Positions 7,044 through 42,016 of a stretch of DNA of 64,000 nt are shown piece after piece (position 1 is the stretch's first letter; every line of letters starts with the position of its first letter). Under the pieces are notes generated by a model. It ran no database searches and was not told the origin of the DNA. It saw only the letters and a list, made by a program, of their open reading frames with translations. Source of the DNA: Siderastrea siderea. Its lineage: Eukaryota; Cnidaria; Anthozoa; Scleractinia; Rhizangiidae. The DNA lies in NCBI GenBank assembly GCA_964030785.1, contig OZ034976.1, positions 1,054,001 through 1,118,000 of the forward strand, read 5' to 3'. The translations under genes were made by a program, and so were the position numbers.

Positions 7044-10000
7044 TGTGGATTAAATATCCAGTTCTAATTTCAAACCAGCTGCGAAATAAAGCAAAACTCC
7101 TCGCCTATCATTGTTGATTGAAAGGAAACAAATTTAATTATTTCAAGCATTTCAGCTTAGCTAACTTGAATTGAGCTGATAACTATTAGAGAGAACAATG
7201 ATTCTGAAATGTTGAAATTGCAAGATAGACTAATTACAAAAAGTTTGTATAAACGGATGCCACTTTTAAAAGATGATATGTAATTATCTCCCCGATTCAA
7301 GGATCAATTATTCCTTATGAAACAGGTGTATTTTCAAGACAACCAAATGTCCTCGAATATACCCCTCTTTTTTGGAATCTTTTCAAATTAATTGCCTGTA
7401 AAACCTACCCCTAATAAATGCCTCTCTTTCACAATAGATTGCTTCCATAGTTTGTTGAGTGATATGTTGTATTCGGTCTTTATTCTCTCTTTTTTTGTTT
7501 TACACCCGCCTCGATTAGCGGTGTCGCTGCCTGCGGGTTTGCAATTAGTGTTTTTTGTTACTGCAAGTGAGCTAACTTGAATTGAGCTGATAAGTGATAA
7601 AAAAGCAGTGTTACCATGGTTCTGAAACGCAGAAAGCGTAAGACTAACTAGTTAATGAAAATTTTTCTTAACTGATGCCTCTTTCACAATGACGATGTCG
7701 GATTATCCCCCCAAACAATTTTTTTTGCTACCGTTTTCAAATCTTTTCGTTTCTGTTCTCCAGAAAGATAAATGCTTGTCATCTTAAAGAGATGTCGATT
7801 TCCACTCAAGGACCACTCGTTCTTGATTTGATTTATGAATCATGAATATTTAGAAAGTACCCTCTTTCCTCGAATATTGTCCTTCTCTTTGGAAACTTTT
7901 TCGAAATCATGATGATTTGCCTTAAAACTAACCTCTAACGGGCAACTGCAGACTAAAATATTTCAGAGTCAAACGTCGATTGAGCCTGTGGGAGGATAAA
8001 ATTGAGTTTTCTGTTGAGAGCGTCACTGATCAGCACATTTCTATATGGTGCTGTTTTGTTTTGGTTTTTGTTTCTGTACTTAGATTTTTCTTAACTGTTT
8101 GGTGTGTACTTCACAGTCTGTTATGATCAAGGTAAAGAGAAACTCACCTTCAGATGACGGATAGTGTGTCTTCAAGAGCGATGTGAACTTTTCCGAACAA
8201 AAATTACAGGAATCAGTATCAAATTCCTGTTCTTTGTGGCCAAATCTCGTAGTAGCCTTTCTAAAGGAGTGCGTATTCTATTTTAAGTTTTGTTTCTCCG
8301 GCAAACCTTTCCTAAAATAAAAAGCAAAATCGCATATTGATTTTGAGAAACAAAAATTATACATAAATTTACTCTGTCATATCTTACTACATAATGAATC
8401 AATGGGAGCAATTCTATTTATTTCAACCACAACAACGAAGAAATTGCTTCTTTCAATCCTGAAGACTAAAAATGACCACGATGGAACCTCTCAGATTAAG
8501 TACGAGCTTTGCAGTTTAATGGTAGCGGTGTGTTTATAGACTGACGCAGTTATCTCATACACCATTATGTAAACCAAATGAAACTTGTCACGATAATAAT
8601 GCTACACACTAGATTACTTCCATAGTTTGTAAAGTGATATATTTTGTATCCGGTCGTTTATCCTCTCGTTACGTTTTTTGTTTTGCATCCGCCTCGATTA
8701 GCGGCCGATCGTTACCTGCGGGTTTGCAATTAGTGGTGTTTGTTTTTGTTTCGTGCCAACTGAGCTAACCTGAATTGAGCTGATAAATAATAAATGAAAT
8801 TTATTTCGGGAAGGAATAAATGGTTTAATGCTGAATGTGACTGATTAATATTGCATTTCTCCAGCTTCCGGTGAGGGGTATTCCCGCCATCCGGGACATC
8901 ACTAAGCAGATTCTTAAGTCATGAAAGCGAGGCAGAAGGCCTCTTCACTCGCTGTAATAAGAAAGTTAAGGCCAAATCAATCCCGGAACGGATGTTTCAT
9001 TATTCTGTGTTCCAGCAAAAAGAGCTCGCCCAAAGCAACACTCCCACTAACATGGATAAGACTTACTATATAAAGGAACATGAAGCATAAAAGCAATGCT
9101 ACATTGGTTCTAAAACGCAGAAAACGTAAGACTAACTCAGTAGTTAATGAAAATTTGTCTTCATTGATGCCTCTTTCACAATGATGTATGATTATCTCCC
9201 CAAACAACTTTTAATTAAAATAAGATGCCACCGACGTTTTCAATTCATTCCGTATTTCTTCTCTAGATCGACAAATGCCGTCACCTTAAAAAGATGTCGA
9301 TCCTCACTCAAGAACCACTTGTTCCTGATTTGATTCATGAATCAAGAATATTTTGAGACTAGCAAATTTCCTCGAATACTGTCCCTCTATTTAGGAACAT
9401 TTTCAAAATGATTTTCCTTAAGAACTTACCTCTAACGGGCGTCTGCCTTTCACATTCCCTTTCAGGAGGCAAAAGTATATCTTAGAGAGTTAGAGTCAAA
9501 CCACGATTGAGCCTGTGGGAGGATAAAGTTGAATTTGTAATTGGCAGCAGCCATTGAGCAGCATATATTCACAGAGGTGTTTGTTTTTACTCATTTTTTT
9601 TCCTAATCTTGAATTTTTCTACACTGTTTGTTGTTTACTTCACAGTCTGTAATGATCCGAGGTAAAAAGAAACTCACCTTCAGATGACGAATGGTGTGTC
9701 TTAGAGAGCAAAATGAACTTTCCAAATAAAAATTGCAGCAATCAGTATTGAATTCGTTTTTTTCTTGGCCAAATGTCGCATTAGCCTTTCTAAAAGAGTG
9801 CGTATTCTATTAGTACGTTAGGTCTTACAAATTTGCATGTTACAATCCTGATGCCTGTATGGTTGATTAATAACAGCTTATTTTTCTCCATTTCTGATTG
9901 GTTGAATAAACCCTTTCGAGCTGAAGGTCGCGTGACCAAAGGTCGGCAAAGAATTCACGAGCCTACTGGCGCACCTCAAATTGTTGGTAATGAAGTTAGC

Positions 10001-17239: not shown

Positions 17240-18315
17240 TTAAATTCTGAAAGCCCAGAGGTCCCATGGCAGTTTAAACGAGTCTGAGAAACCACGTGGA
17301 GAAGGCGTAAGAAGCGCGCCTTGTTCCCCTTTGCAAGAAAGCTTAAGAGAAGCGAAAGCCGAGTGAAATAGAATTGGCCACCAGTATCGTCTAGGGTGAA
17401 CATCGGGGACAACAATAGTGCATCGCAAATGATTAGCCCGCAGATGATTAAAAACTTGCCCAATCAAAAGTATAGGAGGAAAAATATACGGGTTACTTAA
17501 GATGGAACTACGATCCGGGTGGTCAAAATTTTGCGCAAAGAAATCCACGCCAGAGGAACAGGGGGTAGGATACGGTGTAAAATGAGGCAAGGAAACCCCA
17601 TTGAGATCACTTTGAGAGTTTGAGTCCAAAGCCATAAGATCGACAGAATGACCATGTAAACCGCCAAAAGAAGGGTGTGATTGAAGGCGCTGCCACAAAT
17701 GAAAAACTAACTTACTGTCAGCAGGAGAAAAACGACGAGAAGGCTGATCAGCAGGATTAACACTCGAGGGGATATGGATAACTGAAAGGTGCACATTAAG
17801 GTCTAGGACCACTTCCGCTAACCGCTTTAGCGAGTCAGAAAAAAGGCTCGATCGGGCAGCTTGAGACTGCCAGGCCTGAACAAGGGATAGGTTGTCCACA
17901 TAAGCATCAACCCTAGCGTCACGAAGATCATCACGAAAAGAAAGAAGAGTGTTGGTAAGGGCCTTGGTTTCTTTAGTGGTAATATCTAACACTGCTGTAG
18001 AAGGCGTCCAATAGTCGGAAACACTGACATGACTTTTTCGGGGAAAAAGTCCTCCCCAAGCAAAAGAGGACGCGTCCGAATAAACAACGAACTGGAGGTG
18101 TCGCTCGTCGCGCCACTTTCCAATTCTAGCGACAACTGAAGGATCTGCCCAATGCTGCACTTCAGCTCTGAGCGGAGGCGAGATGCGAATAGGCTTAGAG
18201 GATTTTGAACCCTTGCTAATAGCGAGGTTCATCTCATTGGTATAAAGGCGAGAATCCTGTACTGCAAGGCGAAAAGAAATACATTTACCCGCGAGACGCT
18301 GAAGGGTGACAGTCG
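17240..18315 (-). CDS. RNase H domain and C-terminus of the DIRS-like RT polyprotein (downstream fragment)
   Basis: This is the downstream half of the RT/RNase H frame, cut from its upstream half at the Polinton insertion. RNase H acidic residues are visible in YSDASSFAWGG, TTKETKAL, AYVDNLSLVQAW and SSVNPADQPSR. A long tail with VDLMALDSN and LPHFTPYP follows, as often seen in DIRS-type elements. The open frame continues upstream into the Polinton TIR, but that extension is not native. It would degrade the RNA strand of the RNA-cDNA hybrid. The frame is intact over the native part. Confidence 0.85.
18310..18315. repeat. Left 6-bp target-site duplication of the Polinton (cagtcg)
   Basis: Identical to 40817-40822 on the other side of the element. 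A 6-bp duplication is the hallmark of Polinton/Maverick integration. Confidence 0.95.
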
Positions 18316-19151
18316 AGTAGTAAGGGGGGACCGTTTGGCCCTTTTCCTGGCTTCTGATTGGTCGAGAGCGATCACGTGAGTAGAGGAACTTCCGGTGGGG
18401 GAAACCGCTGACCAGTGGGAAAAAGGGGATCGTGGGCTCATGGGAACCGGAAGTCACGTGATTTGGAAAGGGAAACCGCTGCCCAGTGTGAAAAAGGGAT
18501 CGTGGGCTCAAGGGGAAGTAAAACCGCTGAGAAAACGTGGGCTCAAAGTCCAAAGTCCAATGGTGGGAACGAGGGTGGTCCTTGAGTCTAAAAAAACAAG
18601 AAAATAAAAAAAAATAATTTATTGTCAACCTTTTTCACAACAAGTGAGAGAAAACAAAAATAAGGGTTCCATGATGACTTTGAGTTCCTCTTTGAAGGGA
18701 AACCGCTGCCCAGTGTGAAAAAGGGATCGTGGGCTCAAGGGGAAGTAAAACCGCTGAGAAAACGTGGGCTCAAAGTCCAAAGTCCAATGGTGGGAACGAG
18801 GGTGGTCCTTGAGTCTAAAAAAACAAGAAAATAAAAAAAAAATAATTTATTGTCAACCTTTTTCACAACAAGTGAGAGAAAACAAAAATAAGGGTTCCAT
18901 GATGACTTTGAGTTCCTCTTTGAAGGGAAACCGCTGCCCAGTGTGAAAAAGGGATCGTGGGCTCAAGGGGAAGTAAAACCGCTGAGAAAACGTGGGCTCA
19001 AAGTCCAAAGTCCAATGGTGGGAACGAGGGTGGTCCTTGAGTCTAAAAAAACAAGAAAATAAAAAAAAATAATTTATTGTCAACCTTTTTCACAACAAGT
19101 GAGAGAAAACAAAAATAAGGGTTCCATGATGACTTTGAGTTCCTCTTTGAT
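18316..19151 (+). repeat. Left terminal inverted repeat with three ~228-bp tandem units
   Basis: The unique outer 154 bp has two TCACGTGA palindromes (18372-18379, 18454-18461) and ETS-like ccggaa cores. Three near-identical units follow, starting at 18470, 18697 and 18925. Each holds gggaaaccgctgcccagtgt and, on the minus strand, AATAAA. Confidence 0.95.
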
Positions 19152-19391
19152 GTGAGTGTTCCTTTGAGTTCCTTTTAACAGACGACAATTCGTTAATGTT
19201 CAATAGAGGGTCCCCACCATTGTTTTTGACATAGAGTTATTCTTCGCCATTGGTTGTTGTCACGGATCCATTGTTGTAGTTGATATGCTCGATTTCTCAT
19301 TAAAGGTATGGCAAAGGAACTGTAGAATGGGGGTGGTGGCGCCCAATGTTCTCGATCACAGCGATCACAATCGACGATCTTGTTGGGGTTT
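19152..19391. other. Spacer between left TIR and the polymerase gene
   Basis: No gene was recognised in these 240 bp. It probably serves as the 3' untranslated region of the polymerase transcript. Confidence 0.4.
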
Positions 19392-27276: not shown

Positions 27277-27282
27277 TTTATA
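27277..27282 (-). promoter_or_regulatory. TATA box of the 27239 gene
   Basis: TATAAA on the minus strand, 38 bp before the ATG, overlapping the 3' end of the ATPase gene. Confidence 0.6.
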
Positions 27283-27931
27283 GTCGTTTTTGATAGGTGC
27301 GAGTCCATCCTTCGTCTTTTAACAGGTGACTCAACACCCGTTGTTGATCGGAGGAGGCGGGATGTAAATCCAAGACCAAATACCCATACGGTCGTGTCGT
27401 GGCTTGATGAAACGTCTCCAACGTGTCTTTCCAGGTGGTCGGAAACGATTGAAGCATGACATTGCGTACCCCTAATTGATCTCGAGGGTTCTTGAACGCC
27501 ACGATGTAATGGGCATTGCGGGATATACTTTTGGCATAGCGACCCACGGGAAACATGTCTTGGCACAAGTAGAGCACCGTCACCCCTTGATGATGCGAAT
27601 GTTTGGTGAATAAATCCAACACGCGTTTATCGTGACTGCCTTCATCCATTAAATCATCCAAGACCAGGACCCCCTGTCCTTCAGGAAACCATTGCACTAA
27701 GGCCTCATGATCGGGAATCCCTTCGTGAAACACCACCCCTTGATCTTGCATGCTTCGAAATCGATCTTGCCAGGCCCCATAACAATAATGCAATTGGGTC
27801 GGTGGACTTTCAAACAACTCCGGGTTGTCTACCAAGAGTTTTTCCGTAAACGCGGTTTTCCCACATCCCGAAGGACCCACCACCAAGATAGAGGAAGGCG
27901 TATGAAAACGAAACGGTTTCCCCGTTTGCAT
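27278..27931 (-). CDS. FtsK/HerA-type genome-packaging ATPase
   Basis: 217 residues. Walker A GPSGCGKT is at residues 19-26 and Walker B VLVLDD at 88-93, followed by a polar motif region (LCQDMFPVGR, ~140-150). This is the compact packaging ATPase shared by Polintons, adintoviruses and virophages, which pumps DNA into the capsid. The size fits the family. It starts 41 bp downstream of the tRNA-like gene and 18 bp after its T-run, and is followed by the TATA box of the next small gene. The frame is intact. Confidence 0.95.
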   Translation of the reverse strand: MQTGKPFRFHTPSSILVVGPSGCGKTAFTEKLLVDNPELFESPPTQLHYCYGAWQDRFRSMQDQGVVFHEGIPDHEALVQWFPEGQGVLVLDDLMDEGSHDKRVLDLFTKHSHHQGVTVLYLCQDMFPVGRYAKSISRNAHYIVAFKNPRDQLGVRNVMLQSFPTTWKDTLETFHQATTRPYGYLVLDLHPASSDQQRVLSHLLKDEGWTRTYQKRL

Positions 27932-27948
27932 GATGATAATACCCTTAG

Positions 27949-27958
27949 AAAAAAAAAA
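27949..27958 (-). terminator. T10 run, likely RNA polymerase III terminator of the tRNA-like gene
   Basis: Ten consecutive T on the minus strand, 13 nt after the 3' end of the tRNA-like structure. Confidence 0.7.
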
Positions 27959-27971
27959 GGCACCTTTTTAT

Positions 27972-28059
27972 TGGAATCGGTGGGACTCGAACCCACGCAC
28001 GACCCTCCTCATGTATCCGAAGGGGGATCCAAAGGCTCTACCGACTGAGCTACGACTCC
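27972..28059 (-). tRNA. tRNA-like gene with non-canonical anticodon region
   Basis: 88 nt on the minus strand. The acceptor GGAGTCG pairs with CGATTCC (seven pairs, one G-T). The D arm is GCTC/GAGC with an A-box (TAGCTCAGTCGG), and the T arm is GTGGG-TTCGAGT-CCCAC with a B-box. The discriminator base is A and no CCA is encoded. The 38 nt between the D and T arms cannot form a standard anticodon arm. They fold better as a GATCCCCC/GGAGGGTC stem with one mismatch and a 13-nt loop. It could be a tRNA with intron, a class-II-like variant or a tRNA-like RNA. The anticodon is not assigned. Confidence 0.75.
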
Positions 28060-28087: not shown

Positions 28088-28627
28088 TTAAGCATTACAT
28101 TGATGATACGGTTGACAACAAAGTTGATACCATCTGGCTTCTTGGCCTACAATCAATTGTTGAAGGCGTTGACCGGCTTGATGGTCATTACTAACATAAT
28201 CATGATCCGAAAACTCATTTAAAAACGCTTGCAAGGTCCGTCCACGGGCTTTGGCTTTCAAGTACAACAAGGCGTAATCACCACAACTCTTGCTTGAAAT
28301 AGCTTGGAGGGACTTGCCATTGGTCACCACATACTTCCAATGTTGGACGATCCAATCTCGTAACGGGGTCGCTTGCACGTACGTATCCAATGGCAAAGCA
28401 TAACTGTCCAGGACTTCACACACCTTTCCATCCGTCCACACCGCTAACCAATGTTGTCCCGGTTGATCGTGTGGGTCGGTATTCACAATGTACCCTTGGG
28501 GTTGGGTCTTGACAGGAGTCTTGGGTAAACGATCACAGGCCACCGTCCCGTAAAAGACAGGGTTCAATTGGGGGTCGTCTCGGGCTAAATAATCCAACTG
28601 CACATTATTCAAGGCCACATGTTCCAT
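28088..28627 (-). CDS. Adenain-like cysteine protease
   Basis: 179 residues. The catalytic set reads His59 in GQHWLAVW, Asp74 in EVLDSYALP, Gln108 in SLQAISS and Cys115 in SKSCGDYALLYL. Order and spacing match adenovirus protease and the Polinton/virophage maturation proteases. It should cleave capsid precursors, and the small QRGG-bearing proteins of the element are candidate substrates (inference). It lies directly after the major capsid gene, 3 bp past its stop. The frame is complete with no missing catalytic residue. Confidence 0.93.
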   Translation of the reverse strand: MEHVALNNVQLDYLARDDPQLNPVFYGTVACDRLPKTPVKTQPQGYIVNTDPHDQPGQHWLAVWTDGKVCEVLDSYALPLDTYVQATPLRDWIVQHWKYVVTNGKSLQAISSKSCGDYALLYLKAKARGRTLQAFLNEFSDHDYVSNDHQAGQRLQQLIVGQEARWYQLCCQPYHQCNA

Positions 28628-39999: not shown

Positions 40000-40816
40000 T
40001 TTAGACTTTGGACTCTGTTTTCTCTCACTTGTTGTGAAAAAAGTTTGACAATAAATTATTTGTTAAAATTTTTTGTGTTGTTTTTTGGAGTCAAGGACTA
40101 CCCCCGTTCCCCAAATTGGACTTTGGACTTTGAGCCCGCGTTTTCTCAGCGGGTTTACTTCCCCTTGAGCCCACGATCCCTTTTTCACACTGGGCAGCGG
40201 TTTCCCTTCAAAGAGGAACTCAAAGTCATCATGGAACCCTTATTTTTGTTTTCTCTCACTTGTTGTGAAAAAGGTTGACAATAAATTATTTTTTTTTTAT
40301 TTTCTTGTTTTTTTAGACTCAAGGACCACCCTCGTTCCCACCATTGGACTTTGGACTTTGAGCCCACGTTTTCTCAGCGGTTTTACTTCCCCTTGAGCCC
40401 ACGATCCCTTTTTCACACTGGGCAGCGGTTTCCCTTCAAAGAGGAACTCAAAGTCATCATGGAACCCTTATTTTTGTTTTCTCTCACTTGTTGTGAAAAA
40501 GGTTGACAATAAATTATTTTTTTTTTATTTTCTTGTTTTTTTAGACTCAAGGACCACCCTCGTTCCCACCATTGGACTTTGGACTTTGAGCCCACGTTTT
40601 CTCAGCGGTTTTACTTCCCCTTGAGCCCACGATCCCTTTTTCACACTGGGCAGCGGTTTCCCTTTCCAAATCACGTGACTTCCGGTTCCCATGAGCCCAC
40701 GATCCCCTTTTTCCCACTGGTCAGCGGTTTCCCCCACCGGAAGTTCCTCTACTCACGTGATCGCTCTCGACCAATCAGAAGCCAGGAAAAGGGCCAAACG
40801 GTCCCCCCTTACTACT
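40000..40816 (-). repeat. Right terminal inverted repeat with two units plus a decayed third
   Basis: This is the reverse complement of the left end. The unique outer part is 40663-40816. Full units are 40435-40662 and 40207-40434. A diverged partial unit lies at about 40015-40206. Each unit carries AATAAA on the plus strand. Confidence 0.93.
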
Positions 40817-40822
40817 CAGTCG
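40817..40822. repeat. Right 6-bp target-site duplication of the Polinton (cagtcg)
   Basis: Identical to 18310-18315. It abuts the right TIR end ...ttactact. Confidence 0.95.
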
Positions 40823-42016
40823 AAACGCAACTCCCACAGAGAATTGAGTTTACCAAAGCAAGAAAACTGGTTTGCTTATCGGGAGGTAAGTAAAAAGCTT
40901 CTAGGTCAGAATCAGAGATAAAACCGAGGTATTTTATTCTTTTTTGCGGGGTGAAAACACACTTTTTGAGTCCAAGGGTGTACCCAAGAGAAAAGAGGGT
41001 ATATGCAGCAAGGAAAACCGCAGCCTTGGAAGCTTCAAGACGTGTTTCGTCAGAAGGGGTAGCTAAAGTACTCGCCGAAGGGTAGGAGGTTTTGGATTGC
41101 AACTCACCATTGTGCCTATCGTCAATATACAAAGAACATGGTACTCCTATTGAACGCAAAAAATGCGATACTAGGAGACCTGTAGAATGATAAACATAGG
41201 CAGAAATTTTCCAACCAAAAGGAATGGTGTTGGAAACAAAATACCATCCTCTCCACCTAATGCCAAAGAAAGTACGACTAGACACATCCAAAAGAACATG
41301 ATCATAGCCAGATTTATCGTCCAGCGTTGTCTGGTAACATCCTTTTGTGAGGTATCTGGGTAATTGCGATAAGTTGTCCAAACGAAAAGGGCGGTCGACC
41401 ATCCAAAGGTTCAGAAAGCGGTTATCGTGACAAAGGCGAGGTTTTGTCGGTTCAACAGTCAAAGGCATGACGAGATGTGGAGGGTCCACCTCACCAACCC
41501 TCCCTAAGACTGATATAGCGCCACTACACACCCTTTCAAGCAACGTGTTGACAATAAAATCAACAAAATTATTACAAGATTTGTTATTATCAAATTCACT
41601 GCGGGGGGGAATAACAGAGTCATAAGCGCGTCCCTTAAAATGTCCTTTGAACGGCCGAAAAAACTTGAAGAGAGAGACTTTATTCTTAATCCAGTCAAGG
41701 ACTTCATCCGCGCGGTCATAGGTACTGAGACTCGCAATTTTCTCACAGACTTCGCTGTGAAGGTGAAGCTGACCAGCAATGAAAACATCAGGGTTGCGGA
41801 AACGGAGGGTCGTAATGTCAGGGACAATCTTCCCGGAACAGATACTTTGAACAAAGCCAAAATCGAAACAAGGGGCTGTCAATTCCACCTCAGACTCTAG
41901 TGGCCACATATCCATGGTTACCCACTCATTGACTCTAGACTTAAAGACAGCAACACAGGGAGTGGGATCAAATGTACTGTGCTCGGCACGAGGCGTGAGC
42001 GGTTTTGCTTGATTCT
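40817..42016 (-). CDS. Reverse transcriptase of the DIRS-like element (upstream fragment)
   Basis: This is the upstream half of the RT/RNase H frame, ended by the Polinton insertion. The RT palm reads LYIDDRHNG (near 41125), and conserved blocks include FKGRAYDSVIPPRSE, PTKPRLCHDNRFLN, LDDKSGYDHVLLD and KYLGFISD. An ATG lies at 41915, but the frame is open further up to a splice acceptor (ctgtag, AG at 42017-42018) after a T-rich tract, so the exon probably starts at 42016. It copies element RNA into cDNA. The palm residues are intact. The stop reached after the target duplication belongs to the Polinton end. Confidence 0.9.

Follow-up and report, generated by a model that had tools for sequence, protein, structure and literature searches.

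A tRNA-like gene with a hypervariable arm at a fixed site in Polintons of a coral: a candidate noncoding RNA gene

What use could a mobile DNA element make of a tRNA gene that has lost its anticodon arm? The question is raised by a stretch of 64,000 nucleotides (nt) of the Siderastrea siderea genome (contig OZ034976.1 of assembly GCA_964030785.1, positions 1,054,001 to 1,118,000), hereafter the window, in which a Polinton carries a tRNA-like gene on the minus strand (28059-27972). It lies between a protease gene upstream (28088-28627) and a packaging ATPase gene downstream (27278-27931), both on the same strand, as the original prediction, made from the letters of the window, had placed it. 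Judging from sequence comparison, we consider it probable that this is an RNA polymerase III (pol III)-type gene for a noncoding RNA, which arose from a host tRNA-Lys gene, became fixed at the protease/ATPase site in a large Polinton subfamily and is kept by selection for a task other than decoding. That it is a decoding tRNA is very unlikely.

ARAGORN and the Rfam cmscan search concur on the gene, which matches RF00005 at 45.7 bits (gathering cutoff 29, E 1.5e-06) and is the sole tRNA that either program finds within the 64 kb; apart from it, Rfam gives no match at the gathering cutoff for the locus. The body, supported also by pair probabilities, is 88 nt long. It consists of an acceptor stem of 7 bp, one of them G-U (28053-28059 with 27973-27979), a D arm of 4 bp (28035-28050), a T arm of 5 bp (27980-27996) and position 73 (27972), the stems having pair probabilities of 0.89-1.0. 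The A box (TAGCTCAGTCGG, 28041-28052) and the B box (GGTTCGAGTCC, 27983-27993) match their consensuses exactly. With 2 A-box matches found in the 64 kb (0.78 expected) and 1 B-box match (0.37 expected), either box alone could be due to chance, but these two share one cloverleaf and lie 47 nt apart. After the tRNA end comes a trailer of 13 nt (ATAAAAAGGTGCC, 27959-27971), and then a run of ten T (27949-27958), a putative pol III-type terminator that begins 13 nt past that end. The window copy thus has the features of a type 2 pol III gene, namely A and B boxes inside the gene and a T-run after it, and the arms, boxes and T-run listed in the original prediction are all confirmed, on the minus strand. 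Two further observations concern the 3' end: trailer and T-run together (27949-27971) are near-palindromic (AAAAAGG..CCTTTTT) and form a small hairpin in the predicted fold, and an AATAAA overlaps the tRNA end, so that a terminator or a poly(A) role is possible. The second A-box match (TAGCTCAGTTGG, 8756-8767 of the window, minus strand) lies outside the Polinton, and neither ARAGORN nor Rfam gives a tRNA there.

In the window copy the interval from the D to the T arm measures 38 nt, against 23 in a class I tRNA. Its minimum-energy fold is a 5-nt linker followed by one hairpin at 28001-28029 on the minus strand (pair probabilities 0.58-0.81), which stands at the place of the anticodon arm, and the claim that the anticodon region had been replaced by a different hairpin is upheld. 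A class-II-like cloverleaf with an 8-nt loop, for which ARAGORN proposes the anticodon 'cccc', is 4.5 kcal/mol weaker and has a probability near 0.

Is the gene a peculiarity of this element? A look at related Polintons, as had been suggested, bears on this. The host assembly (831 Mb) was searched with the end of the protease gene and the start of the ATPase gene as the only anchors, leaving the tRNA unused, and this returned 398 anchored copies (reversed-pattern control, 0). Sister elements carry the gene where the window has it; because the anchors are exact, these copies sample one subfamily of related elements. Among the matches listed, the tRNA 5' end is reached in every copy (read by eye in rows of 80 nt). 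Without the 88-nt gene a gap of 96 nt would be expected, and 0 copies fall at 70-130 nt (gaps of 131-144 nt lie outside the search). Reading from the ATPase side gave 96 copies with letters and 4 without, out of the 398. Of those 96, 95 have an exact B box and 94 an exact trailer, and all have a T-run of 7-12, while the stretch from the T-run to the ATG, that is, the ATPase 5' untranslated region (5'UTR), exists in 34 forms. Expression by pol III fits these data because B box, trailer and T-run are constant.

A second search, with exact D- and T-arm words around a free middle, gave 344 matches in the host genome (reversed control, 0). The first 30 by position, all on C1, lie without exception between protease and ATPase genes, with T-runs of 4-11. 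Of these 30 copies, 26 keep all seven acceptor pairs, with more than one combination of alleles, and 25 have an exact trailer; an RNA product fits because pairing is kept. Out of 20 scanned C1 copies, 18 reach the Rfam threshold with 31-52 bits, those lacking a middle arm scoring about 45. A separate first set of 30 sister loci had been chosen by tRNA match, and the 0-1 changes seen there were excluded as evidence. Two of the 30 C1 copies, L047 and L048, are the halves of one tandem duplication, which contains two tRNA-like genes (1493-1578 and 1909-1994 of L047) and parts of the protease and ATPase genes.

Relatives at the protein level point the same way. There are 2016 ATPase homologues, of which the best 120 were listed and 62 inspected, and in five of the 62 the open reading frame (ORF) extends upstream through the tRNA. 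In P0005, P0006 and P0008 the informative arm positions are as in the window at 22/22, 23/23 and 22/22 on the 5' side and at 20/20, 22/22 and 22/22 on the 3' side, and the trailer at 12/12 in each, while their middles diverge (17/21, 15/20 and 17/24). In P0003 and P0121 the 3' part is seen, at 18/19 (the single mismatch being a GTG start rendered as M) and 12/12. All five may belong to the window's own species. In P0056, from a distant Polinton whose ATPase is 69% identical, residues 1-21, in the upstream extension, look at the protein level like a tRNA-Asp-like gene followed by a T-rich stretch, as judged against what we take to be the human tRNA-Asp sequence; if this is true, the site has been filled twice from different tRNAs. 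Additional protein searches contributed P0121, and no second tRNA-Asp-like case was seen in 16 further proteins inspected.

Where does the gene come from? The D arm is identical to that of host tRNA-Lys(UUU) at 18/18 positions. A tRNA-Lys(CUU) pattern found three matches in the host, the two printed ones having a Lys-type anticodon arm and GGGTCGTG ahead of the T arm; the tRNA-Lys(CUU) genes carry GGGTCGTGGGTTCGAGCCCCA, which agrees with 15/16 letters of the T arm. This pattern imposed the D- and T-arm words, and the arm identity with tRNA-Lys(CUU) is therefore not independent. The host genes differ from the Polinton gene in the acceptor, and the Polinton gene lacks the anticodon arm and has GTGC inserted before the T stem. 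On these sequence resemblances a host tRNA-Lys gene is the likely parent, in line with the proposal that a tRNA had been captured. Host tRNA matches form dense groups at 22.15 Mb of C11 and 32.25-32.43 Mb of C2, and the ones typed by ARAGORN in the fetched loci are largely tRNA-Lys(UUU).

The middle of the gene is hypervariable. Among the matches listed there are at least 57 distinct forms, either armless (11 nt, in 4 of the 30 C1 copies) or of 27-38 nt, and none of 23. In the C1 copies the middle is unlike in 96% of 232 alignable pairs, and it already differs between copies whose ATPases are 1.25% apart (54 copies, loci selected by tRNA included). The hairpin-forming capacity is usually kept: 46 of 56 armed middles are more stable than their shuffles are on average, 12 of them with z below -2 (median -1.1), and 49 of 56 can form a single hairpin of 6 bp or more, where shuffles predict 37.8. 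The two halves of each middle pair with one another at -10.37 kcal/mol, compared with -8.60 when halves are permuted (0/5000 permutations as good); by group, the counts are 2/5000 in the C-rich group and 0/5000 in the rest. In a search for antisense targets of the middle within the element, the longest shared word measured 11 nt; ten shuffles gave 8-10. Fast change of the middle is compatible with relaxed and with diversifying selection alike.

Several observations weigh against a selected RNA gene. The window copy folds with ordinary energy (z -1.25, 21 of 200 shuffles being equally stable), and folding energy as sole evidence for a gene was dropped, its fold being unexceptional. Ten of the 56 armed middles fold no better than shuffles. 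The exact A box of the window occurs in 158 copies, about 40% of the 398, in a count whose anchors were a little shorter and whose gap range excludes armless copies. Six fetched copies (L026-L031) have one change in this box (TAGCTCAGTGGG) that still satisfies the consensus, and both box consensuses are matched at a spacing of 40-80 nt in 53 of 61 fetched loci; since the exact box is found in only this share of the copies, and the consensus was seen only in fetched loci, conservation of the A box is less secure than that of the B box. At the protein level, P0019, P0023 and P0029 have long upstream extensions without the tRNA signature. As for the rates, over the 232 alignable C1 pairs the acceptor has 0.088 and the trailer 0.086 differences per site (the latter value inflated by one-base shifts), compared with 0.146 at third positions of the ATPase gene, so that acceptor and trailer are only moderately slower than third codon positions. 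The original prediction had named decay of the stems as a refuting sign; the acceptor pairing speaks for the gene, while L039 and L041, whose acceptors are decayed and give no Rfam match, speak against it. At the acceptor pair 6-67 we noted by eye three full swaps (C1:2593372, C1:67457183 and C2:68034213), along with four half-swaps (C1:13547348, C1:52128789, C2:2023331 and C2:19127775), which together indicate exchange between copies, besides pairing. Low variation is thus partly shared ancestry, as the copies are related and exchange segments.

The gene might also be a passenger: a captured tRNA without function that has spread with its element, which would be young, recombining and amplified only recently. 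The copies are indeed alike (ATPase differences of 2.1% in the tRNA-selected set), acceptor alleles look mixed and the middle drifts. However, a mere passenger should not keep B box and trailer near-invariant next to a 5'UTR with 34 forms in the same 96 copies, nor should it leave the 70-130 nt gap range devoid of gene-deleted copies or the halves of the middle matched, and we regard this explanation as distinctly improbable. A role at the DNA level, where TFIIIC and pol III drawn to the A and B boxes would form a boundary or road-block between genes and the RNA would be a by-product, would account for B box and T-run being the most constant parts. Acceptor pairing, matched middle halves and an exact trailer are all unexpected under it, and it appears still more remote than the passenger. 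Punctuation in cis deserves somewhat more credit, though it too is unlikely. Mitochondrial tRNA punctuation and MALAT1/mascRNA follow the same logic: RNase P and tRNase Z would cleave the tRNA fold within a pol II transcript, or the fold would work together with the AATAAA at its end, forming the 3' end of the protease mRNA and parting the ATPase mRNA from it. The strand common to both genes, the fixed place between them, the AATAAA at the tRNA end with its trailer exact in 94/96, and the acceptor pairing kept in 26/30 all agree with such processing, which on the other hand needs neither an exact B box nor a T-run of 7-12, and the window has just one such gene.

A decoding tRNA, whether of class II, with a four-base anticodon or containing an intron, is scarcely credible. 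In its favour are the 'cccc' proposed by ARAGORN in the window and class-II-like arms that are feasible in 18 of 56 middles (8.4 expected from shuffles). Loop-loop pairing of at least 4 in such arms, however, is found in 3 of 56 (1.6 expected), which leaves the class-II model unsupported. Besides the weakness of the class-II fold in the window and the armless copies, ARAGORN over the 30 copies gives 14 unassigned genes, 5 Gly, 3 Arg, 1 Gln and 7 times no gene; acceptor, D and T arms and both boxes are present, whereas a 5-bp arm with a 7-nt loop and one consistent anticodon is not found. The covariance and intron check that had been suggested gave a tRNA with cmscan but no convincing intron: the intron-containing tRNA was rejected, the intron modes of ARAGORN returning a poor 5-nt intron under one setting and an intron-free gene otherwise. 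The suggestion of a translation tRNA is accordingly disfavoured, given a middle of 11-38 nt that never measures 23 and inconsistent anticodons. For a priming role we found no support; the PolB of Polintons is expected to be protein-primed.

By analogy with known viral RNAs, we favour a tRNA mimic acting in trans over processing in cis, a passenger or a DNA boundary. Pol III would make an RNA of about 100 nt, with processing at both ends of the tRNA part. Expression and stability would come from the constant tRNA body, as would recognition by tRNA-handling proteins; having lost the anticodon, the RNA would stay out of translation, and the middle arm would be free, or pressed, to change. As a tRNA mimic or a decoy, the RNA might then occupy a host RNA-handling or antiviral factor, much as adenovirus virus-associated (VA) RNA does; taken alone, this step is tentative. 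Bolder, and doubtful at present, is the idea of a viral RNA effector with a constant tRNA body and a hypervariable hairpin diversifying in conflict, the partner being a host tRNA- or RNA-sensing defence, or rival Polintons. If so, one genome would hold hundreds of Polintons with dozens of arm versions, the armless one included.

How far does the likeness to VA RNA extend? Polintons are related to adenoviruses, and a VA RNA, of about 160 nt, has a terminal stem, an apical stem and a central domain. The Polinton gene is likewise short, has A and B boxes and belongs to a related lineage of DNA viruses, its pol III type being predicted here; it differs in its intact cloverleaf ends, its shorter length and its site, and the 88-nt cloverleaf-like body lacks the long apical and terminal stems that mark VA RNA. 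The likeness would thus be one of logic, not of class membership, and the comparison in logic with VA RNA made in the original prediction is a fair one. For VA RNA itself, a tRNA-gene origin has been proposed, stem 7-loop 8 resembling an anticodon arm (PMC6599070). If our reading is true, the Polinton gene would be a natural test case for that origin, would bring together dozens of arm variants that share a single body and would give a noncoding gene to elements that are mostly characterised through their proteins.

The tRNA-miRNA-encoded RNAs (TMERs) of murine gammaherpesvirus 68 (MHV68) come from viral pol III genes that start with a tRNA-like element and are 200-250 nt long with two pre-miRNA hairpins downstream (PMC4838037). 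The Polinton gene is unlike them, since its 13-nt trailer is followed at once by the T-run, close by in 96/96 copies, and it lacks downstream pre-miRNA hairpins. Polinton-like viruses and virophages carry tRNA genes, 558 of them in one collection, where they are discussed as decoding (PMC12220804), so that the statement that no standard Polinton tRNA gene is known needs qualifying. These, too, are tRNA genes inside small eukaryotic DNA elements, but in the present case the anticodon arm has been lost or replaced and one site is occupied in hundreds of copies. A tRNA-derived pol III-type gene in Polintons is not reported in the titles listed by our literature searches (title level, mostly non-subscription).

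The host element spans about 22.5 kb (18315-40817) and is recognised as a Polinton by its PolB (PF03175), an integrase with rve and chromo domains, and terminal inverted repeats at its ends. Pfam matches for the two genes flanking the tRNA-like gene are below cutoff (Peptidase_C5, E 0.0014, for the protease; AAA_16 and Pox_A32 for the ATPase), and some of the ATPase homologues (n = 2016, E <= 0.001) carry Pox_A32. In viral contigs, no relative of the ATPase was found by protein or alignment search and a 24-nt arm pattern had no exact match; in phage records, the 466-aa ORF and the ATPase were unmatched, and the only match, of 23 nt, was to the tRNA-Arg of an archaeal virus. At about 27097, next to the downstream end of the ATPase gene, the window element is without some 500-540 bp that are present in L001, L012 and L022; L007, the fourth locus compared, is unalignable beyond this point. 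The terminal inverted repeats (18315-19155 and 40016-40817) hold internal repeats about 228 nt apart. Finally, AGTCGA flanks the element on both sides (18311-18316 and 40818-40823), likely as a 6-bp target-site duplication, the left copy of which reaches two bases into the left terminal repeat.
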